A stretch of DNA of 64,000 bases from Dehalococcoides mccartyi CG5 (GTDB lineage: Bacteria; Chloroflexota; Dehalococcoidia; Dehalococcoidales; Dehalococcoidaceae): NCBI RefSeq assembly GCF_000830885.1, contig NZ_CP006951.1, forward strand, positions 558,001 through 622,000. Reading direction: 5' to 3'. This document shows, in pieces, positions 1,523 to 22,054 of this stretch. The notes under the pieces were generated by a model. The model worked only from the letters and a program-made list of their open reading frames with translations, had not been told where the DNA came from and did not search any database. A program made the translations under genes and the position numbers. How positions within the stretch are numbered: position 1 is the first letter of the stretch; the number at the start of each line of letters is the position of its first letter.

Positions 1523-2923
1523 TCAGGGGTTCTGTTTTATACCGGGTATGCCTATAAACGGAAGATTCCGGTATTCCTCATGGTAATCCAGCCCATACCC
1601 TACCACAAATTCATCCGGCAGTTCAAAACCTACATAGTCAATATTTATGTCAATAAGTCGTCTTACCTTGCGGTCAAGAAGGGTGCAAACCTTGAGGCTG
1701 GCAGGATTTTTAGACCTGAGATGGTTTAACAGATAGTTCAGGGTTATGCCTGTATCCACAATGTCTTCAACAAGCAGCACATCTCTGCCAGCTACCTCCA
1801 GATCCATGTCCTTGGTGATGCGTACCATAGATGCATTGCTGCCGCTGTAATAGGATATGGTCATAAAATCTATATCCAGCGGAATAGCTATCTGGCGTAT
1901 TAGGTCTGCCATAAAACAGATAAATCCCCTTTGCACCCCGATAAGTATGGGGCGGTTATCCGGGTAATCATCAGATATTTGGCGTGCCAAGCTGGCCACT
2001 CTCTCGGCGATATCCCCGGCGGTATAAAGCACCCTGTCTATGCCGTGAGCTCTGGTCTGAGCCAATGGGCCGCACCCGTACTTGGATAACAGACGTGCAT
2101 AATCATTTTTATATAACAGGCTTATTTTTATATCAGGGTAAAGCTCTCTTAGCATTTTGAGTTTATGGTTTTTGGTAGTAACCAGACTTTGCTTCAAAGT
2201 GGTCAGCTCTATATACATGTCCAACCCCGGCAGATAAAAATCAGGGGTAAACATTTCAGTAACCAGTTCACCTTCCCAATCCAGCGGGAAAGAACGGGGT
2301 TCATATATCCACTCTATATTATAGAAATCCAGTAAACGGGCAAATTCAGTCTCGCTCTGGTGGGCAAAGGTGATATTTTGGGCGGTTTTCAGGTTTGAAG
2401 CTGGCATTGAGGCAGTGTTATCCACAGGTGCTGTGGTTGTCGGCAATGTACAAAAGGCCAAAGAGATTATACGTGCCATATTTTCAGCAAAAGTTATATC
2501 CTGCTGGCTGAATTCGTAAAAATCTTTGCAGTAAAACCTTATACTGCCGATAACTTTTTCCCGATAAATAATAGGACTACCCAAGATAGAAGAAAATCCG
2601 GCTTTTAAAGCCATCTGCGGGAACTGGATACGGTGGTCATTTTGGACATCGGTTATGGCTGTAGTTTGAATGTTTACCGTTTCTCCTATGCTGTCTGCGG
2701 CTGAAAGAACGCCTTTGTGGATATAAAACTGGGGCAGACCGAAGGAGATATTGTGGGAAAGTTTTTGTCCTGCCGCATCTATAAGCAGTAGTGATACGGC
2801 ACAATGACTGGCCCGTGCCGCCAGACGGATAATCCCTTCCAGCTTTGCCTTAAGTTCAGCCGGGGTGTTTAGACTTTGGATTGACCGGCTAACGGCTTTG
2901 TAAAAAGCCCGCTCTTTGTTCAA
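1523..2923 (-). CDS. Three-part protein: GAF domain, nuclease-fold-like middle, hypoxanthine phosphoribosyltransferase-like domain
   Basis: A 466-residue protein. Residues about 1-155 look like a GAF sensor domain (SILGSPIIYREKVIGSIRFY). Residues about 180-280 hold TPDFYLPGLDMYIELTTLKQ, which resembles a PD-(D/E)xK nuclease-type fold, although catalytic function is unproven. Residues about 295-466 are a phosphoribosyltransferase of the HPRT type, with the PRPP loop VEDIVDTGITLNYLL and a C-terminal DFVVGYGLDY-like segment (DEFVVGYGLDYHEEYRN). HPRT converts hypoxanthine or guanine to nucleotide. TTG at 2923 is chosen because GGGAG lies seven bases upstream; longer in-frame extensions run through the upstream terminator. 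A second, stand-alone hpt lies at 41.7 kb, so this one may be regulatory. Confidence 0.75.
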   Translation of the reverse strand: MNKERAFYKAVSRSIQSLNTPAELKAKLEGIIRLAARASHCAVSLLLIDAAGQKLSHNISFGLPQFYIHKGVLSAADSIGETVNIQTTAITDVQNDHRIQFPQMALKAGFSSILGSPIIYREKVIGSIRFYCKDFYEFSQQDITFAENMARIISLAFCTLPTTTAPVDNTASMPASNLKTAQNITFAHQSETEFARLLDFYNIEWIYEPRSFPLDWEGELVTEMFTPDFYLPGLDMYIELTTLKQSLVTTKNHKLKMLRELYPDIKISLLYKNDYARLLSKYGCGPLAQTRAHGIDRVLYTAGDIAERVASLARQISDDYPDNRPILIGVQRGFICFMADLIRQIAIPLDIDFMTISYYSGSNASMVRITKDMDLEVAGRDVLLVEDIVDTGITLNYLLNHLRSKNPASLKVCTLLDRKVRRLIDINIDYVGFELPDEFVVGYGLDYHEEYRNLPFIGIPGIKQNP

Positions 2924-2983
2924 GGCACACTCCCTTAATGCAATTGTAAAATGGCAGATGGGGTATGTCAATTTAATAAATGG

Positions 2984-3009
2984 AAAAACCGCTGTTTTTC
3001 GACAGCGGT
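2984..3009 (-). terminator. Rho-independent terminator of the thrS-infC-rpmI-rplT operon
   Basis: Read on the minus strand, ACCGCTGT (3009-3002) pairs perfectly with ACAGCGGT (2995-2988) across a six-base loop and is followed by five T. It sits just past the rplT stop, so the fusion gene beyond it probably has its own promoter or depends on readthrough. Confidence 0.85.
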
Positions 3010-3035
3010 CAATTATCCATTTGGGTGGTTTAGGC

Positions 3036-3395
3036 TTAGTTAGCTTTAGCAGCAGCGGCTTTGGCAGCCACAGCGGCGAAAGCAACAGTGTCTGATATGG
3101 CCATATCGGCTAAAACTTTACGGTTTATATCAATACCGGCAACCTTAAGCCCTGATATAAGCTCACCATAAGTAAGCCCTTCAGCCCTGGCAGCCGCATT
3201 GATACGGGTAATCCAAAGCCTGCGCATATCACCTTTGCGTGCTCGTCTGTGGGCAAAAGCATAGCTCATGGCATGAACCATGGACTCATGTGCCCGCTTG
3301 AACAGCGAATGTCTGGTTGAAGCGTGGCCCTTTGTTAAGGCCAGGACCTTCTTATGTCTTTTATGTGTGGCTAAGCCACCTTTAATACGTGCCAA
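3036..3395 (-). CDS. rplT: 50S ribosomal protein L20
   Basis: A 119-residue basic protein with the L20 signature: MARIKGG at the start, [33 protein letters not shown] and the RINAAAR segment. L20 binds 23S rRNA early in large-subunit assembly. It is the last gene of the minus-strand operon thrS-infC-rpmI-rplT, 18 bases after rpmI, with a clear terminator beyond. The C-terminal tail is alanine and lysine rich and slightly longer than usual. Confidence 0.97.
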
Positions 3396-6107: not shown

Positions 6108-8639
6108 TTAGATAAGTGCGCCAAATGCGGTAGCCAGGAGTACGGCTGCAAAAACTATACTTAAGTTTATGATAACCAAGATTGAAATCCACTCCCAGCT
6201 GGTAAGGCGTTTGATAACGGCCTTGACCAAAGCTTCTTGGGCTTTGCTCATAGCTTCTTCGGCAGCCAGTTTGGCCGCATTGGCAATGCTTTCTGCTTTG
6301 GCACCGGCATCTTCAGCTGCACGGCGGGCTTTTTCAACCTCGGCTGCGGCTTTCATCTGGGCATCACGCATCATAGCTTCTGCCTGAGAGCGGGATATTT
6401 TGGCAAAGTCTTCGGCTGAACGTTTGGCATCAATACCCACCTGTTCAGCTCTGTTTATAAGGTCCTGAATAATACTCATTGAAGCATGGATAGCGGCATC
6501 CCCTGCTTCATCAGCCAAAGTAGCCTTTTTGCGGGTTTCCTCAGCTACCTTAAACCCTGACTTGGCGGATTCCTTAGCAGCATATCCGGCATCCTCAGCC
6601 CGTTTGGCAATGTCACCGCTGACTCTGGTTGCGGCTTCAAGGGCTTCATCTCCGGCCATCTCAGCCAGGGAAGCTTTGCGGGCAGTTTCTTCGGCCAGTT
6701 GAAGGGCAGCAGTAGCCGCCATTTTAGCCTTGCGGCCGGCTTCGTCTGCCTTACGGGCACTGTTAGCATCTTTCCGTGTATTGGCTTCAGTAGTTGCCGT
6801 ATTGGCAGCAGCAGTTGCCTCAGTAGCATTATTTCCAGCCTTATTAGCGGCCAGAATGGTTTTATCAAGCTCTGCCTTTGCAGTCAAAGCTATCTGGCTG
6901 GCCCGGATAGCAGATGCCTCAGCAGCTTTTTTATTGGCCAAAGCAGTTTCTTTGGCAGTGAGAGCTACTTCGTCTGCCCGGTTGGTAGCTTCTTCAGCTG
7001 CCAGTTTGGCGGCTTTGGCGGTATCTTCAGCCTTATAGGCAGCTTCTTCTGCCCTCGAAGCAGCAGCGGCGGCAGCAGCAGCGGCGGCGGCAGAAGCCTG
7101 TTCAGCTCTGCGGGTAGCTTCCTCTGCGGCTAGTTGAGCTTTCTTGGCGGCATCTTCAGCGGCTTTGGTGGCAGCCTTTACAGCATCATCAACAGCTAGT
7201 TTGGCAGCTGCTATAGCTTCTTCAGCCTTTTTAGTAGCAGCGGCAGCGGCAGCTTCAGCTCTTTTTGCTGCTTCGTTGGCAGCATTTGTGGCATTGGCAG
7301 CAGCCAGTTTGGCGGCTTCGCCAGCAATTTTAACGGCCTCATCGGCTTTTTGTGTAGCAGCCAAAGCAGCCGCTTCGGCCCGTTTGGCCGCTAGATCGGC
7401 AGCTTTTATGGCATCTTCAGCCTTTTGAGTGGAAAGCAGGCTGGCATTCTCGGCTTTTTTAGATGCCTCAGCAGCAGCAGCTTCAGCTTTTCGGGCGGCA
7501 TCTTCAGCTACCAAAATAGCTTTTTCAGCCGAAGACTTGGCAGCGGCAACCGCCGCTTCAGATTTCATAGCCGCAGACATAGCAGCTTCACTGGCTGAAG
7601 CTATAGCCTCAGCGGCAGCTTTTTTTGAAGCCAAAAGGGCTTCCTCTGCTTTTAAGGTGGCGGCTTTGGCCGCAGCTTCGGCTCTAAGTGCAGCCTCATT
7701 GGCTGCTTTTATAGCTTGTTCGGCTGCAGATTTCGCAATAGCACTGGCTTCCTCTGCTTTTTTAGCAGCAGCCATAGCGGCGGCAGTAGCCATAGCGGCA
7801 GCTTCTTTGGCAGCCAGACTGGCGGCTTCGGCCCTTTTAGCTGCTTCACTGGCAGATTTGGTAGCATTTTCAGCTGCATTGGTAGCAGCTAAACTAGCCG
7901 CTTCGGCTTTACGAGCAGCTTCTTCAGCTTTTAACACTGCTTCACGAGAAGCATTAGTAGCATCTTCAGCGGTTTTTCTGGCTAAGGCAGAAGCCTGTTC
8001 GGCTCTATGGGCAGCGTCTTCAGCAGCGTTGGTCGCCAGTTCCGAAGCCTGAATAGCCGCAATCGTGGCATCTTGGGCTTCGCGAATGGCTTTTTCAGCT
8101 GCCTGACGGGCATTTTCACCGGCATCTTCAGCCCTTTGGGCGGCGGATTCAGCCACAAGTATGGCATTATCTGCTGCATCACGGGCGGCTTGACTGGCGG
8201 CCTCTGCACGTCTAGCAGCTTCTTCCGCTACTCTTTTAAAATCATCAGCAGCCTTAGCTGCCCCTCTTTCAGCATCTTCAGCTTTACGGGAAGCTAATTC
8301 TGCGGCTTTCAGGGCTTCATTGGCAGCGTTAGTAGCTAATTTAGCAGTTTTTTCGGCTGCAGCAGCAGCTTCAGCAGCGGCTCTGGTAGCGGTTTCAGCT
8401 GCTTTTTCACCAGCCAAACGGGCATCTTCTGCTCGTTTTTCAGCTAAATTGGCAGCATGGGTAGCACTTTCAGCAGCTTTGCCGGCAGTGACAGCCGCTT
8501 CTTGTGCCCGGCGGGCGGCTTCGGCAGCCGCACGTATATTAGCATCCATTTCATCAAGAATCTGGGGTAAGGGCTTAGTTAAAATCTTGGGTTGGGCAAC
8601 AGGCTCATTATTTGAAGAAATATTTTTCTTTCCTTCCAT
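6108..8639 (-). CDS. Very long alanine-rich coiled-coil protein with C-terminal membrane anchor
   Basis: An 843-residue protein, largely Ala, Glu, Lys and Arg, arranged as near-continuous helix repeats such as AARKAEAASLAA. A unit of about 25 residues (seven helical turns) is clear around residues 239-315. Residues 18-48 (PKILTKPLPQILDEMDANI) and the last 40 residues (LTSWEWISILVIINLSIVF) match the paralogue at 8781-10187 closely. No signal peptide is seen; the only membrane segment is the last 25 residues, so it is probably tail-anchored with the helical rod in the cytoplasm. ATG 8639 has AGAGG nine bases upstream. Function is unknown; a structural rod or scaffold is an inference. Confidence 0.85.
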   Translation of the reverse strand: MEGKKNISSNNEPVAQPKILTKPLPQILDEMDANIRAAAEAARRAQEAAVTAGKAAESATHAANLAEKRAEDARLAGEKAAETATRAAAEAAAAAEKTAKLATNAANEALKAAELASRKAEDAERGAAKAADDFKRVAEEAARRAEAASQAARDAADNAILVAESAAQRAEDAGENARQAAEKAIREAQDATIAAIQASELATNAAEDAAHRAEQASALARKTAEDATNASREAVLKAEEAARKAEAASLAATNAAENATKSASEAAKRAEAASLAAKEAAAMATAAAMAAAKKAEEASAIAKSAAEQAIKAANEAALRAEAAAKAATLKAEEALLASKKAAAEAIASASEAAMSAAMKSEAAVAAAKSSAEKAILVAEDAARKAEAAAAEASKKAENASLLSTQKAEDAIKAADLAAKRAEAAALAATQKADEAVKIAGEAAKLAAANATNAANEAAKRAEAAAAAATKKAEEAIAAAKLAVDDAVKAATKAAEDAAKKAQLAAEEATRRAEQASAAAAAAAAAAASRAEEAAYKAEDTAKAAKLAAEEATNRADEVALTAKETALANKKAAEASAIRASQIALTAKAELDKTILAANKAGNNATEATAAANTATTEANTRKDANSARKADEAGRKAKMAATAALQLAEETARKASLAEMAGDEALEAATRVSGDIAKRAEDAGYAAKESAKSGFKVAEETRKKATLADEAGDAAIHASMSIIQDLINRAEQVGIDAKRSAEDFAKISRSQAEAMMRDAQMKAAAEVEKARRAAEDAGAKAESIANAAKLAAEEAMSKAQEALVKAVIKRLTSWEWISILVIINLSIVFAAVLLATAFGALI
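7695..7925 (-). repeat. Tandem repeat of about 75 bases inside the alanine-rich gene
   Basis: Three consecutive degenerate units begin EAARKAEAASL, EAAKRAEAASL and AAAKKAEEASA, each 25 residues long. The repetition is visible at protein level and only loosely at DNA level, so it is old. Confidence 0.5.
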
Positions 8640-8780: not shown

Positions 8781-10187
8781 TTAAATCAAGGCGCCAAGAG
8801 CAGTAGCAATAAGTACTGCTGCGAATACTATACTAAGGTTAATTACTACCAGAATTACGATCCATTCCCAGCTGGTAAGGCGTTTGATGACGGCTTTGAC
8901 CAGAGCCTCCTCGGCCTTGGCAAGTGCCTCTTCAGCAGCTCTACGCGCACTTTGGGCAACTTCTTCGGCTGTCTGCCTGACCCGTGATACCTCTGCTACG
9001 GCTCTATCTGCAGCAGCTCTGGCGGTAGTTTCAGCGCCGGTGGCCCGTTCAGCAGCAGCTTTGGCGGTAGCTTCAGCACCGGTGGCTCGCTCAGCGGCAG
9101 ATTTGGCGGTGCTTTCAGCCCGGCTAGCTAGCTCTTGCAAGATGGACATAGCAGTCCGGATAGCATCATCGCCGGCTTTGTCTGCAGATACAGCTTGCTG
9201 AGCCATGTTTTCGGCAATTTTAAAACCATTGGCAGCAGATTCTTTGGCCATTCGGCCAGCTTCATCAACTGCTGTTGCCAATTTGCCGCTAACCTTGGTG
9301 GCAGCTTCAATGGCTTCATCTCCGGCCACATCGGCCATTTCAGCCTTGTGGGACAATTGTTCAGATAAGTGTAAAGCAGATATCGCCATTTCCTTGGCTT
9401 TGCGCCCGGCATCATCAGCGGTTTTACCTGCTTCGGTAGTTAGTTTGATAGTGGCATCTTTGCCGGCAGATTTGGCGGCAGCTATAGCGGCTGCAACTTC
9501 AACACTGTTTTTTTCAGCCTGTTTAATAAGCCTCTCAAGGGCTTCTTTGGCGGCTTTTGCAATTTCTTCAGCCCTGATTGCAGCTTGTTCAGCGGCTCTT
9601 TGGGCAGCTAAGGCAGCTTCTTTTGAGGAACGGGCAACTTCATCAGCTTTAGCAGTTGCTTCCTCAGCAGCATATATGGCGGCTCTAGCCGTTTCTTCGG
9701 CACGCATGGCGGCTTCTTCAGCCCGTCTGGCGGCTTCTTCAGCAGATAAACTAGCTTGAGCAGCTGCCTCAGCGGCAGAGGCTCTAGCTTTTTCGCTGGC
9801 TTCTTCAGCCGCTTTCTTGAAAGTTTCAGCTGCTTTTACTGCGGCCCTATCAGCTTCTACTGAACGTAAAATAGCTTCCTGAGCCTTTGCAGTAGCTTCG
9901 GCAGCTTTAGCAACTGCTTCGGCAGCAGCTTTTTTGGCTACCGCTGCAGCGTTTTCGCCTGCAAGCCGGGCATCTTCAGCCCGTTTTTCCGCCACCTCAG
10001 CGGCACGCATAGAAGTACCGGCAGATGCACTTGCTTGTTTGGCTGCTTCCTCTGCACGTCTGGCAGCTTCCGCGGCAGCGCGGATATTGGCTTCCATTTC
10101 GTCCAGAATGATAGGCAGAGGCTTGGTCATAATCTTGGGACCGGGTTGGTCTACATGCTGACCCAGAGCGGGGCTTTTATTCTCCAT
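8781..10187 (-). CDS. Alanine-rich coiled-coil protein with C-terminal membrane anchor, paralogue
   Basis: A 468-residue shorter version of the neighbouring 843-residue protein. The N-terminal KIMTKPLPIILDEMEANI motif, the region around AGDEAIEAATKVSGKLA, and the final LTSWEWIVILVVINLSIVF anchor are shared; the middle helical repeats are fewer. Near residues 355-395 a 14-residue unit (AAERATGAEATAKA) is repeated almost exactly. ATG 10187 is preceded by AGAGG; an upstream extension lacks similarity to the paralogue. The two form a duplicated pair, each probably transcribed alone. Function unknown. Confidence 0.85.
   Translation of the reverse strand: MENKSPALGQHVDQPGPKIMTKPLPIILDEMEANIRAAAEAARRAEEAAKQASASAGTSMRAAEVAEKRAEDARLAGENAAAVAKKAAAEAVAKAAEATAKAQEAILRSVEADRAAVKAAETFKKAAEEASEKARASAAEAAAQASLSAEEAARRAEEAAMRAEETARAAIYAAEEATAKADEVARSSKEAALAAQRAAEQAAIRAEEIAKAAKEALERLIKQAEKNSVEVAAAIAAAKSAGKDATIKLTTEAGKTADDAGRKAKEMAISALHLSEQLSHKAEMADVAGDEAIEAATKVSGKLATAVDEAGRMAKESAANGFKIAENMAQQAVSADKAGDDAIRTAMSILQELASRAESTAKSAAERATGAEATAKAAAERATGAETTARAAADRAVAEVSRVRQTAEEVAQSARRAAEEALAKAEEALVKAVIKRLTSWEWIVILVVINLSIVFAAVLIATALGALI
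9010..9119 (-). repeat. 42-base tandem repeat
   Basis: Two nearly identical 42-base units (9010-9051 and 9052-9093), with a third degenerate copy beginning at 9094. The near-identity at DNA level suggests a recent slippage expansion inside the coding sequence. Confidence 0.75.
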
Positions 10188-10689
10188 TTCATCCTCTTTC
10201 CTTGGCCGGCTAGTAGTACCAATGCCACAAATAGCCGTTGCCAAAAACTATATATAGCTCTGACAATTAAAACGCACTATTAAACAAGCAAGTACTTATA
10301 TATCACTCACGTGTAGTCTAATCTATGCTCAAGGCAGAGTCAATACGAAATCATGAGTGATCAAGAATAAATTCTATTATGTAAAGAAGTCTTAATGGGT
10401 TACATTGTAGAAATTTTAGTAGAAATGGGTAAATATATCTGTGTTAAATTACCCGAAGAAAAAATACTGCTTAGTAACATATAGATAATGCTGCCAAATT
10501 GGATTGGCAATATTTTATATAATTTGTAAACCTTCGTTTCTGTGGATGTGAAGAACGCCTGCTGATATAGTACTTGAAGGTAATCAATTGTTGTCCTAGA
10601 AGACCTTTTGCCGGGTGATCAATAATATACTGGCATAGCGAAAGATAATTGGGGGTTATGTTGAGCTATGATTTCAGGTTTGAATTTAG
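10188..10689. other. AT-rich intergenic region without a recognisable gene
   Basis: About 500 bases with frequent stops in all frames and no tRNA or other RNA family I recognise. It holds an inverted repeat ATCACTCA / TGAGTGAT (near 10303 and 10354), each arm beside a short AT run. It must include the promoter of the minus-strand alanine-rich gene, but I cannot single out a convincing pair of boxes. Confidence 0.5.
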
Positions 10690-13298: not shown

Positions 13299-13313
13299 TT
13301 TTCTCTAAACTAA

Positions 13314-13342
13314 AGCCCTCTTTCAAAAGAGGGCTTTTTTAT
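13314..13342 (+). terminator. Terminator after tRNA-Pro
   Basis: AGCCCTCTT (13314-13322) pairs perfectly with AAGAGGGCT (13327-13335) across a four-base loop, followed by TTTTTTATT. Confidence 0.9.
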
Positions 13343-13381: not shown

Positions 13382-14185
13382 TTAAGAACCACCCGCCAGT
13401 GCTCCGCCAAATACCTGCCAGGCAAGAGCTGTCTTGGCTGTAAGGCTCAGGAATATATAAACCCTCTCACCGAATAGATAATCCCGCCACTTGCCTACTT
13501 TTTTGTACTGCAGCCACATATTTAAAGCGAAGCTGAAGAAGAAAATGAACAGAGTAGGCAAAATGAAGTAAACAAAGGTTGGAATATTATCGCTGGCTTG
13601 TGATATTGCTCCGAAGAAATAAATACTGATAGCTACCCATGGCATAAATCCGGCAAAACACCCGAAAGTATAAGAAAGCCAGTTGGTTTTGGGAGTAGTC
13701 TGGTTGTGAAGCTCCATCATCAGCCCGAACAGGTTCATGGCGGCATTTGCCCCGAAAATAGCAATCAAAGTAGCCACGTCATATATGCCGCTAAGCATGG
13801 CAATCAGGACAATCATAATGGAGGAACTCAAGGCATATTCATACCAGCGGGCGTAGTTAATGCCTTTGCTAAGGTTTGTCTTGTACCATTCAAATACGCC
13901 CGGTGAAGACAGCAGGAAGTGGGCTATGGCCGAAAGCAATAGGAATATAGCTACCATAGGGCCTATGGGCAGGTCAAATAGCATTTCCGGTGGTTTAAAA
14001 GTAATGCCGCCGGGGCCGCCGCCAATAAAGTTGGTAGTGACCGGGAGCGAAAAATTGTTGCTAAGAAACAGAATAAGTATTGACTGGGCCAAATGGAAAC
14101 TACCCATAACGAGGTTGTAAACCCGCAGTTTCTTAAAGGTTTGCAACTGGTTTGATTCAGACTGTTTAGCTTTCTTGTTAGCCAT
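13382..14185 (-). CDS. Heliorhodopsin
   Basis: A 267-residue seven-helix membrane protein of the heliorhodopsin family, retinal-binding proteins with inverted topology and mostly sensory or unknown roles. The Schiff-base lysine is K251 in SLTAKTALAWQVFG (helix 7). Helix 3 has YARWYEYALSSSIMI with E116 at the counterion position, and the long first loop between helices 1 and 2 is present. ATG 14185 has AGGAGG five bases upstream. It is third in an operon after a hydrolase and a DUF2177 membrane protein. No retinal-forming dioxygenase is in the window, so the source of retinal is unclear. The family call is strong; the function is not known. Confidence 0.92.
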   Translation of the reverse strand: MANKKAKQSESNQLQTFKKLRVYNLVMGSFHLAQSILILFLSNNFSLPVTTNFIGGGPGGITFKPPEMLFDLPIGPMVAIFLLLSAIAHFLLSSPGVFEWYKTNLSKGINYARWYEYALSSSIMIVLIAMLSGIYDVATLIAIFGANAAMNLFGLMMELHNQTTPKTNWLSYTFGCFAGFMPWVAISIYFFGAISQASDNIPTFVYFILPTLFIFFFSFALNMWLQYKKVGKWRDYLFGERVYIFLSLTAKTALAWQVFGGALAGGS

Positions 14186-14242
14186 GTTGCCTCCTATTAC
14201 CCTTTCTTTGTTGGCAGAAAAACAGGCAAACTCCTAGAAAGG

Positions 14243-14644
14243 TTACAGACTATACAAAATACCGCCTGTTAAACCGGCGGCAGCACCCAAAAAAGTCCCC
14301 CAGCCTATATCTACCAGAGCCATTTTCAGGCTGAAGCTATTAAGGGTGGAATAATTAGTCAAGTCGTGAATGCCATAAGTAATAAACCCGAAAAGGCCGC
14401 CATACGCCAGAGCAGCAAAAATATTATCTTCCGCTAAAGGCAGTGCCATGGCTACGATACCCAAACTGATAAGCAGATAAACCAGTATGGCCGAAGGCCA
14501 GTCAGGTGACATCCCTCCTCCGCTCCAGCGGGCAATAGGAGAAAGTTCGGTTACATAAAATTTTTTGGCAATCAATCCAATCCAGATAAGATCCAGAACA
14601 AAGACAAGCACCAACACTATCAAGTAGACCAGTAGACTGCTCAT
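14243..14644 (-). CDS. DUF2177-family membrane protein
   Basis: A 133-residue protein with four membrane segments. It has DLIWIGLIAKKFY near residue 18 and GIHDLTNYSTL near 90, both signatures of DUF2177. The function is unknown in the family. The start has AAGGAGG seven bases upstream and lies ten bases after the hydrolase; the heliorhodopsin gene follows after 57 bases, so the three are probably one transcript. Confidence 0.82.
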   Translation of the reverse strand: MSSLLVYLIVLVLVFVLDLIWIGLIAKKFYVTELSPIARWSGGGMSPDWPSAILVYLLISLGIVAMALPLAEDNIFAALAYGGLFGFITYGIHDLTNYSTLNSFSLKMALVDIGWGTFLGAAAGLTGGILYSL

Positions 14645-14653
14645 CTTTCCTCC

Positions 14654-15313
14654 TTAAACTTGCTTTTCCATGTATTCTATAAACCAGCCACCTGCCAGTT
14701 CGGCTACTTTTTCCAATGCACCCGGTTCTTCAAAAAGGTGACCGGCTCCCGGTAATATGCAGAGATGGTTGGGGGCGCGCATTTGCTTTTGAGACTGGGT
14801 ATTCAGCTTTAATACCTGAGAGTCATTTTCGCCAACTATAAATAAAGTGGGAGATTCCACCATGGGCAGCAGTTCTCTGGCAAGGTCAGGCCTTCCCCCC
14901 CTTGAGACAACGGCTTTAATTTGTCTGGGCAGTAATGCGGATGCATAAAGTGCAACTGCGGCCCCGGTGCTTGCCCCGAAATAACCTAACGGCAGGTCTT
15001 GGGTTTCTTCTCTGGCCTTCAGCATTTCGGTTACTTTTATAACCCTGTCTGCCAGAAAACGGAAATTGTAGCGGGTATTGGCAATAAGGATATCCACCAT
15101 ATCCTCTTTGGGTGTCAACAAATCAAATAGAAAGGTAGCCAGCCCGTAGCTGTTTAATTGATGAGCAACCTGACGGTTACGCGGACTCTGGTGGTTAGAA
15201 CCTGAACCATGTACAAATATCACCAGCCCTATAGGTTCTGGTGGTATAGCCAAATCACCGGGCAAATTGGTAGTGCCTATCACAACATTTATGGTTTTTT
15301 CGTATATCTGCAT
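14654..15313 (-). CDS. Alpha/beta hydrolase, dienelactone-hydrolase-like
   Basis: A 219-residue single-domain hydrolase. The oxyanion segment is FVHGSGSNHQS near residue 33. The nucleophile elbow GASTGAAV (Ser near residue 115) is a GxSxG variant. The acid lies in VGENDSQ and the His in GAGHLFEEPG, giving a full catalytic triad. Substrate unknown. First gene of the transcript with DUF2177 and heliorhodopsin. Start ATG 15313 with AGGA seven bases upstream. Confidence 0.82.
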   Translation of the reverse strand: MQIYEKTINVVIGTTNLPGDLAIPPEPIGLVIFVHGSGSNHQSPRNRQVAHQLNSYGLATFLFDLLTPKEDMVDILIANTRYNFRFLADRVIKVTEMLKAREETQDLPLGYFGASTGAAVALYASALLPRQIKAVVSRGGRPDLARELLPMVESPTLFIVGENDSQVLKLNTQSQKQMRAPNHLCILPGAGHLFEEPGALEKVAELAGGWFIEYMEKQV

Positions 15314-15525
15314 AAAAATTCCTAGCTATAGTATAGGATATTACTGTGCCAAAGTCATTATAAATAAAGCAAAGTTGTTAATTTTTATTTAAAAATAGGT
15401 GTTTTCCCATAGGTCAAATAAGTACTAATACGCATTATCTTTGATGGTCAACTATTGTAACCTTCTAACACATACAGACTCTCTACCCCACCGTGTTTGA
15501 GTCAATTAAAGTGGAGGAGGCCGCC
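15314..15525. other. Divergent intergenic region
   Basis: About 210 AT-rich bases between the minus-strand hydrolase operon and the plus-strand CxxC gene. It must carry both promoters. I see AT-rich -10-like boxes (TATACT on the minus strand just upstream of the hydrolase) but no pair with a matching -35 box that I would call. Confidence 0.4.
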
Positions 15526-15690
15526 ATGAAAGTTACAATAAACGCCTGCCCCAAATGTAAAAAGGAAAGGGTCATTCGGATAGAGGACGAAAATAACCTC
15601 TATGAATATCGGGAAAAATATGTGCATCAGGACTGCACTAAGTGTGTAGCAAAAGAAATGGAATCTAAAGCAGTGGGTGCTTCAGCCTGA
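15526..15690 (+). CDS. Small CxxC protein
   Basis: A 54-residue protein with two cysteine pairs, CPKC near residue 8 and a DCTKC segment near residue 37, suggesting a zinc-binding or redox knuckle. ATG 15526 is chosen because GGAGGAGG lies five bases upstream; the longer frame from 15493 has no ribosome site. Standalone gene followed by a strong terminator. Function unknown. Confidence 0.6.
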   Translation: MKVTINACPKCKKERVIRIEDENNLYEYREKYVHQDCTKCVAKEMESKAVGASA

Positions 15691-20873: not shown

Positions 20874-21914
20874 TCATACCACTTGTAGCACATTTTTTAA
20901 AAATTTGTTCAAGCAGACGGTCATCAATCCCCGTGTATGCCCTGCTGAGAAGTCTGCCAATGTATAGCTCAGACCCGATAAGGGATTTCCAGTTTTTTCA
21001 TATTCAGCCAGATTGGCTTTGGAAAGTTTATTGGTTTTTATATTTTTGTCCAAACAGGACACAGCCAAATCAGCACACAGCAAACCAAAATATATTCCCC
21101 CTCCGGTAGTCGGTTTTAACTGGCCGGCAAAATCACCTACTGCCAGTACTCTGTCCCCAAAGCTGGCAGAAAGATTGCCTATAGGAACCGGGCGGCAGAC
21201 ATAGTTAATATGCTTAGCGGTTATCAACCCTTGCTTGTATAAAGTATTATGTAAAGCACTCCAGCATTCAAATGGATTTTTGCGGGTAAGCAGTCCCATT
21301 TTGGCGGTGCAGTCATTTATGGAGCTAAGCCAACCGAAATATCCCTGAGATATGGCTTTGCCGGTAAAAAGTGACAAATTGGACGGAATAGAAGTATCAA
21401 CTTCGGCCTGAAGTCCGTAAGCGAAGTTATTTATTTCCCCCAGTCCGGTTGCCCGGCTGAGAGCAGTATTGTAACCTGCGGCCAGAACAACCGCTTTGGC
21501 GGTGAAAGACTGCCCTTCTTTGGTGGTTATGCGAAGCCCGTTTTCAATATATTCAATACTGTTTGCCTGAAAACCGAAGCTTGTTCGCACCCCGCAGTTA
21601 ATTGCCTGTTGTAATAATTTGGCCTGAAAGCTTGCTCTGTCCAGCATTATTGCCTGCGGTGTATCCCGTTTGAGCAACAGCTTTTGACCGCCGGGTGAAT
21701 ATACGCTTGCCTCTGAAAAATAATTTTGTATGTATTTGCCATCGAAGCCGTATTTAGAGGCGCACTCGGTGCTGATTATGCCTGTACAGCAAACCTGCTT
21801 TGCCGCTTCAGGTTTTTTTTCCAGTAGCCGTACTTCGTAGCCGCACTCGGCCAGACACTTGGCGGTATGCAGCCCTACAGGGCCTGCCCCTATTACCAGT
21901 ACATCGGTATTCAT
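20874..21914 (-). CDS. FAD-dependent oxidoreductase, geranylgeranyl-reductase-like
   Basis: A 346-residue flavoprotein with the N-terminal dinucleotide motif VIGAGPVGLHTAKCLAE, a CCTGIIS segment and the FAD-contacting VLAVGDFAGQLKPTTGGGI near residue 265, the layout of geranylgeranyl reductases that saturate isoprenoid chains. Possible substrates here are quinone or lipid side chains, which would fit with dxs at the left edge, but this is not shown. ATG 21914 is chosen because the fold begins there; upstream Met codons add a nonconserved tail. The ribosome site is weak. Confidence 0.8.
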   Translation of the reverse strand: MNTDVLVIGAGPVGLHTAKCLAECGYEVRLLEKKPEAAKQVCCTGIISTECASKYGFDGKYIQNYFSEASVYSPGGQKLLLKRDTPQAIMLDRASFQAKLLQQAINCGVRTSFGFQANSIEYIENGLRITTKEGQSFTAKAVVLAAGYNTALSRATGLGEINNFAYGLQAEVDTSIPSNLSLFTGKAISQGYFGWLSSINDCTAKMGLLTRKNPFECWSALHNTLYKQGLITAKHINYVCRPVPIGNLSASFGDRVLAVGDFAGQLKPTTGGGIYFGLLCADLAVSCLDKNIKTNKLSKANLAEYEKTGNPLSGLSYTLADFSAGHTRGLMTVCLNKFLKNVLQVV

Positions 21915-22054
21915 AGTTACATTATCCGGTTTTTTAGCAAAAAAGACAATTGGCATATAAAACACAAAAGGGTATTGTGCTTAAAAAGTATTAAAGCTAT
22001 AATGGAAGACAAAAGTATAGTATTATGCTTTCTAACTGGTTTTGAGGTGCGTAT

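Follow-up and report, generated by a model that had tools for sequence, protein, structure and literature searches.

What use is a heliorhodopsin (HeR) to a bacterium whose habitat is normally dark and anoxic? The gene that raises this question lies in a window of 64,000 nucleotides (positions 558,001 to 622,000 of NZ_CP006951.1) from the complete 1,362,151-bp genome of Dehalococcoides mccartyi CG5; positions below are those of the window. Dehalococcoides are obligate organohalide-respiring anaerobes, as the first-pass annotation had supposed the host to be. That annotation considered an HeR unexpected in such an organism, a view that needs correcting: MORN-HeRs are known from Firmicutes that are strict anaerobes (PMC8612252), and both partners in the operon described here have already been reported as frequent HeR neighbors (PMC11109279). 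The locus comprises the following features.

13382-14185, minus strand: heliorhodopsin, 267 amino acids (PF18761, NF038020 and 6is6 matches; key residues; dN/dS)
14243-14644, minus strand: DUF2177 protein, 133 amino acids, four predicted transmembrane helices (PF09945, E=6.5e-30; low-confidence AlphaFold model)
14654-15313, minus strand: alpha/beta hydrolase of the dienelactone hydrolase family, 219 amino acids (2o2g, E=6e-60; Pfam DLH/Abhydrolase)
15330-15358, minus strand: promoter-like site ATGACT-17-TATACT (consensus match only)
13312-13337, unstranded: inverted repeat between the HeR stop codon and tRNA-Pro(GGG), likely terminator (conserved in three genomes)

The predicted product of 13382-14185 is a genuine heliorhodopsin. 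It matches PF18761 with E=4.4e-103 and 344 bits (Pfam cut-off 26.7) and, over its full length, the NCBIfam equivalog NF038020 with 348 bits (cut-off 100); phmmer aligns it with the solved TaHeR (6is6) at E=3.7e-79 and 269 bits, covering residues 12-263. By alignment, Glu108 of TaHeR corresponds to the counterion E116 in helix 3 and Lys238 to the Schiff-base lysine K251 in helix 7, the latter sitting in an SxxxK motif (S247-L-T-A-K251). The first-pass annotation had identified the gene from these same two residues, and its coordinates, gene order and residue numbers are exact. Loss of the Schiff-base lysine in relatives, which it had named as evidence that would tell against the idea, does not occur among the 120 full-length HeRs aligned: K251 and E116 are invariant in all of them, as are R113, Y117, E158, W183 and S247. 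Of the 53 columns in which other HeRs show at least 93% conservation, one differs in Dehalococcoides and none in the window copy. As regards the inverted topology of HeRs, with the N-terminus inside, which is putative here, about 15 lysines and arginines fall on the cytoplasmic side and 1 outside when helix limits are carried over manually from TaHeR; a simple hydropathy scan gave only six of the seven helices.

The Schiff-base cavity has the residues of an ordinary prokaryotic HeR, including the His31/His89 pair, whose counterparts in 48C12 (His23 and His80) are plausible proton acceptors (PMC9726877). Most members of an order-wide HeR lineage have leucine in place of both histidines (window positions 31 and 89); the window HeR retains both. 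Across the alignment, 22 HeRs have leucine at both positions, always jointly and in two separate clades, and the remaining 98 keep both histidines. The double-leucine proteins come from Dehalococcoidia (L042-L048, L050, L053-L055, L136, L138, L151 and L155 in our numbering) and Actinomycetota (L088, L094, L100, L106, L110, L128 and L134), a pattern suggestive of convergence on another proton acceptor. The window protein resembles TaHeR (6is6, 7u55) and 48C12 (6su3) in its full-length family match, Schiff-base Lys and Glu, His pair and, apparently, positive cytoplasmic loops; what differs is the host, an obligate anaerobe that respires organohalides and lacks genes for carotenoid or retinal synthesis.

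Does the gene belong to a larger unit? In the direction of transcription the order is hydrolase, DUF2177 and, last, HeR, with gaps of 9 and 57 bp. The Shine-Dalgarno sequence of DUF2177 contains the hydrolase stop codon (TAAGGAGG), and the HeR ribosome-binding site, AGGAGG, lies 6 nt 5' of the ATG. The trio is found in identical order on the same strand in all three Dehalococcoides genomes. Because of this spacing and conservation, co-transcription is strongly suggested and appears likely, so that the single transcript proposed at the outset stands as one probable operon, predicted from sequence. The 150 bp 5' of the hydrolase (about 15314-15463) are 89-92% identical among the three genomes, in contrast to the operon genes, whose dS among them is 0.3-0.9. 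The promoter-like site is conserved within this upstream block, sites of such a kind being no commoner than in shuffled sequences, and the inverted repeat at 13312-13337 has a strong T run on the plus strand, i.e., on the tRNA side. Values of dN/dS are 0.05-0.08 for HeR, 0.05-0.09 for DUF2177 and 0.04-0.05 for the hydrolase in the Dehalococcoides genomes, similar to those of the neighboring peptide deformylase, HAD and pyrophosphatase genes (0.02-0.07). Judged by these ratios, the trio is under purifying selection and the HeR gene is maintained, not decaying.

A link with the upstream H+-pyrophosphatase was set aside in view of the distance of about 450 bp and of an intervening hairpin (CCCCCGGG...CCGGGGG, recognized by eye). 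Divergent from the operon, positions 15526-15690 (plus strand) hold a 54-amino-acid, zinc-ribbon-like CxxC...CxxC open reading frame that is 93-98% identical in the two other Dehalococcoides and has no Pfam match. Elsewhere in the window, on the minus strand, 6108-8639 and 8781-10244 are tandem paralogues, very alanine-rich and coiled-coil-like with nearly identical C-terminal membrane anchors, the second having no Pfam match; 1523-3085 (minus strand) fuses a GAF domain to a phosphoribosyltransferase domain.

The arrangement has the features by which Cho et al. 2024 define HeR operons (HeR adjacent, same strand, one predicted promoter), the promoter here being a consensus match only, and both neighbor families, alpha/beta hydrolase and DUF2177, are already among the ten linked HeR-operon groups given in that study (PMC11109279). 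The study differs from the present case in that its main text does not mention Dehalococcoides by name and tests only the ABC-transporter group. Our literature searches found no description of a Dehalococcoides HeR gene, and no light- or oxygen-stress transcriptomes, expression data or light responses for the genus; a search with locus tags DET0762-0767 (guessed for the region in strain 195) returned DET0767 only, unrelated to HeR. Elsewhere, experiments have shown HeR to be a regulator of its operon partners (PMC9529153, PMC9769723, PMC11109279). By likeness, the Dehalococcoides locus may work as do those HeR-partner systems, which involve glutamine synthetase, photolyase or an ABC transporter. 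With the HeR and CPD photolyase of Trichococcus (PMC9769723) it would share an HeR operon whose proposed regulated partner acts against light damage; unlike Trichococcus, Dehalococcoidaceae have no photolyase (none in 11 genomes), and an HeR-photolyase partnership was rejected on this ground.

Which neighbor would then be the partner? The hydrolase aligns with 2o2g over its whole length, including the GYFGASTG, Asp and HLFEE regions (Ser-Asp-His), and by this measure the predicted protein is a member of the dienelactone hydrolase family, with an alpha/beta-hydrolase fold and Ser-Asp-His. Comparison with defense families gave no match. Its relatives in the sister genus and the wider class (47-54% identical) lie away from the HeR loci examined, and among the genomes searched the trio with hydrolase is specific to Dehalococcoides. 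The three-gene synteny, which the first-pass annotation proposed to look for across Dehalococcoidia, is not conserved there: only in Dehalococcoides does the hydrolase adjoin the other two genes, and the wider unit is the DUF2177-HeR pair.

HeR is present in 10 of the 11 Dehalococcoidaceae genomes and in 76 of 393 genomes of the class Dehalococcoidia. The family's HeRs form two lineages; a single clade is rejected (AU p=5e-8), as is vertical descent of the family's copies from one HeR. To one lineage belong Dehalococcoides and three Dehalogenimonas genomes, placed where the tree is poorly resolved and other phyla also fall, and the other is shared across the order; a clade of Dehalococcoides with the HeRs of genomes G003, G006 and G009 is neither supported nor rejected (p=0.36). 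Two HeR genes (G120:C239 and G387:C110), split by an in-frame TAG or a frameshift, are possible pseudogenes or assembly errors.

Within the class, HeR occurs in 18 of the 34 genomes that have DUF2177, versus 76 of 393 overall (odds ratio 5.8, p=4e-6), a test that ignores phylogeny; the version with the family excluded gives an odds ratio of 3.75 (p=0.002). In 8 of the 18 co-occurring genomes the genes share a strand and are no more than about 1.7 kb apart, with DUF2177 upstream or downstream of HeR; such linkage counts are lower bounds, the class genomes being largely incomplete assemblies. Well-supported branches of the DUF2177 tree force at least three changes of linkage, and the pairing spans two HeR lineages for which a joint clade is rejected (AU p=5e-8). 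Such repeated pairing points to a functional connection beyond common descent. Four Dehalogenimonas genomes have no DUF2177, and three of them have kept HeR. In Dehalococcoides, DUF2177 has diverged to 26-34% identity with its counterparts beyond the genus; its AlphaFold model has four helices at low confidence (pLDDT 61, two sequences only). Profile searches of the PDB found no relative, and no viral relative was found. An iterative DUF2177 search drifted to unrelated open reading frames, and those additional matches were disregarded.

Neighborhoods in relatives give an indication of what the pair might do. The gene order is DUF2177-HeR-DegV-(179 aa)-DUF1295, followed by a pyridine-nucleotide-disulfide oxidoreductase, in G003 and G009, and HeR-DegV-DUF1295-DUF2177 in G010; in G104, related at the level of the order, DUF2177-HeR has SOUL, SDR and DegV genes on the opposite strand, and in G361 TspO adjoins HeR. 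DegV next to HeR was noted earlier by others, as cited in PMC9385722. DUF2177 loci without HeR have SDR-amine oxidase-DUF1365, SOUL, DUF1295 or a MerR-B12 regulator; the amine oxidase and DUF1365 of L137 were identified by Pfam, and for neighbor families without a Pfam run the assignment rests on sequence similarity. The G009 module adjoins rplS-priA. Since a DUF1295 fragment of about 104 amino acids lies some 5.5 kb from this same site in Dehalogenimonas lykanthroporepellens (G007), which has no HeR, the fragment suggests the remnant of a decayed module.

A precedent for this gene set comes from Chlamydomonas, where SOUL, DUF2177, DUF1295, DUF1365 and CFA genes rank with the strongest genes of the SAK1-dependent singlet-oxygen response (PMC4067076). 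DUF2177, DUF1295, DUF1365 and SOUL appear together there as they do around HeR or DUF2177 in Dehalococcoidia; the Chlamydomonas set, however, is eukaryotic, is defined by co-regulation and not co-localization, and is without HeR. A literature search for DUF1295 and DUF1365 with light yielded nothing beyond that study. If DUF1295, DUF1365, SOUL, CFA, amine oxidase, MerR-B12 and photolyase are counted as module families, related loci elsewhere in the Dehalococcoidia, Dehalogenimonas included, show linkage to them. At the Dehalococcoides locus the photo-oxidative families are represented by DUF2177 alone, with no linkage to the families counted, and no DUF1295, photolyase or carotenoid genes were found in Dehalococcoides genomes. 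As these families are missing, a module role in Dehalococcoides is a deduction from its relatives, and the locus may be described as working like, or derived from, a photo-oxidative module, not as a full member. The lipid or stress system suggested by the first-pass annotation is supported, indirectly, by the neighborhoods in relatives.

How could such an HeR obtain its chromophore? A retinal-forming oxygenase, already reported as missing from the window, was found neither in the whole genome nor in the family, and phytoene synthase is missing too. The latter is absent from all 11 family genomes, the same search having matched 7 of 14 control genomes; RPE65-type oxygenases are likewise absent from the 11, with two controls matched. 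Blh/BCD was found in none of the 11 and also in none of the 14 controls, a result that is weak alone and leans on the missing phytoene synthase; one sub-threshold BCD match occurs among the 393 class genomes. Carotenoid genes of their own together with Blh or RPE65 genes, the mark of retinal prototrophy, are thus found in 0 of 11 family genomes. With the known pathway lost throughout the family, either retinal is exogenous or the protein works differently. In the class, HeR and phytoene synthase are anticorrelated (both in 13 genomes, HeR only in 63, synthase only in 118; odds ratio 0.35, p=7e-4, kinship ignored), the synthase being present in 13 of 76 HeR genomes versus 118 of 317 others. In the order, the synthase occurs in 1 of 23 HeR genomes, G361, the one with TspO beside HeR. 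Other bacteria that cannot make retinal are documented to take it up from outside and to have functional rhodopsins (PMC12422013, PMC11561045).

Two further observations touch on isoprenoids. An FAD protein at 20874-21965 (minus strand) matches lycopene cyclase weakly (37.5 bits, cut-off 23.4); as phytoene synthase is missing, an enzyme of the geranylgeranyl-reductase type is the more likely identity. At two HeR loci, L150 and L153, a gene of the MpaB/Lcp rubber-oxygenase family, assigned by similarity in the former and by a Pfam match in the latter, adjoins HeR (461 and 456 bp, respectively) with a photolyase nearby. An isoprenoid-cleaving oxygenase beside a retinal protein might be worth considering as a source of retinal.

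We put at about even chances the reading that HeR does not pump but regulates in response to light, as part of a photo-oxidative (singlet-oxygen type) membrane-stress module of which a reduced form remains. In its best-supported form, a retinal-auxotrophic HeR would regulate a membrane-protective DUF2177 function; we infer the uptake, the light step and the coupling. Trace retinal from aerobic or phototrophic neighbors would be taken up by the cell and would bond K251, with E116 as counterion. Should cells be washed or lifted into light and oxygen, photoisomerization and proton transfer via E116 to His89/His31 would change the cytoplasmic face of the protein. The altered face might in turn change the activity of the co-made DUF2177, and in Dehalococcoides possibly that of the hydrolase as well, perhaps through physical contact, so that the membrane would be protected or repaired. 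Against this reading count the divergent DUF2177 and its poor fold model, the absence of DUF1295, photolyase and carotenoid genes and of a known retinal route, the normally dark, anoxic habitat, and the three Dehalogenimonas that have HeR without DUF2177.

It is conceivable, if rather unlikely, that the hydrolase is the real effector, bound and switched by HeR in the manner of glutamine synthetase or photolyase, and DUF2177 an accessory. Its gene lies directly upstream of the pair in all three Dehalococcoides genomes, its catalytic residues align with 2o2g, its dN/dS is as low as 0.04-0.05, and its family is among the ten HeR-operon groups of Cho et al. (PMC11109279); yet its relatives at 47-54% identity lie away from the HeR loci examined, and it is DUF2177 that stays with HeR in several lineages. 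A deeper departure would be an HeR that works without retinal, using another aldehyde or lipid-like ligand or partnering DUF2177 as an apoprotein with a structural or lipid-sensing role. The lack of phytoene synthase, Blh/BCD and RPE65 homologues in all 11 family genomes, the anticorrelation in the class (p=7e-4) and the dark habitat speak for it, but K251, E116, the SxxxK motif, the His pair and the other cavity residues are all kept under strong constraint and exogenous retinal is known to feed functional rhodopsins in auxotrophs (PMC12422013, PMC11561045), so we think it quite unlikely. Improbable, too, is its bolder extension, an HeR lineage fitted to permanently dark, anoxic cells with a non-retinal ligand or none, a lipid- or redox-sensing DUF2177 partner and a lysine kept for different chemistry.

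The patchy distribution of HeR in the class (76/393), the two lineages within the family and the absence of HeR from D. lykanthroporepellens, with its DUF1295 remnant kept, would also fit a passenger acquired by transfer and retained with little function, its adjacency to DUF2177 incidental. A dN/dS of 0.05-0.08, 267 intact codons in a streamlined 1.36-Mb genome, the conserved upstream block and the presence of HeR in 10 of 11 family genomes leave this only a slim chance. As for light-driven proton transport of the V2HeR3 type, a viral HeR of the same fold family does transport protons (PMC9448325), but in most characterized cellular HeRs light brings about no pH change (PMC9385722), and the cavity of the window HeR has ordinary prokaryotic residues; we give this idea next to no credence.

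The light-dependent regulator that we favor would make DUF2177 a specific HeR partner, as its recurrent pairing proposes, from a family otherwise found with photo-oxidative genes. Dehalococcoides being a cultured and well-studied bioremediation genus, its maintained HeR, for which it has no known route to retinal, makes the role of such proteins in dark anaerobes directly testable. If the cells do respond to light, the way in which dechlorinating cultures are handled in the light could matter in practice.
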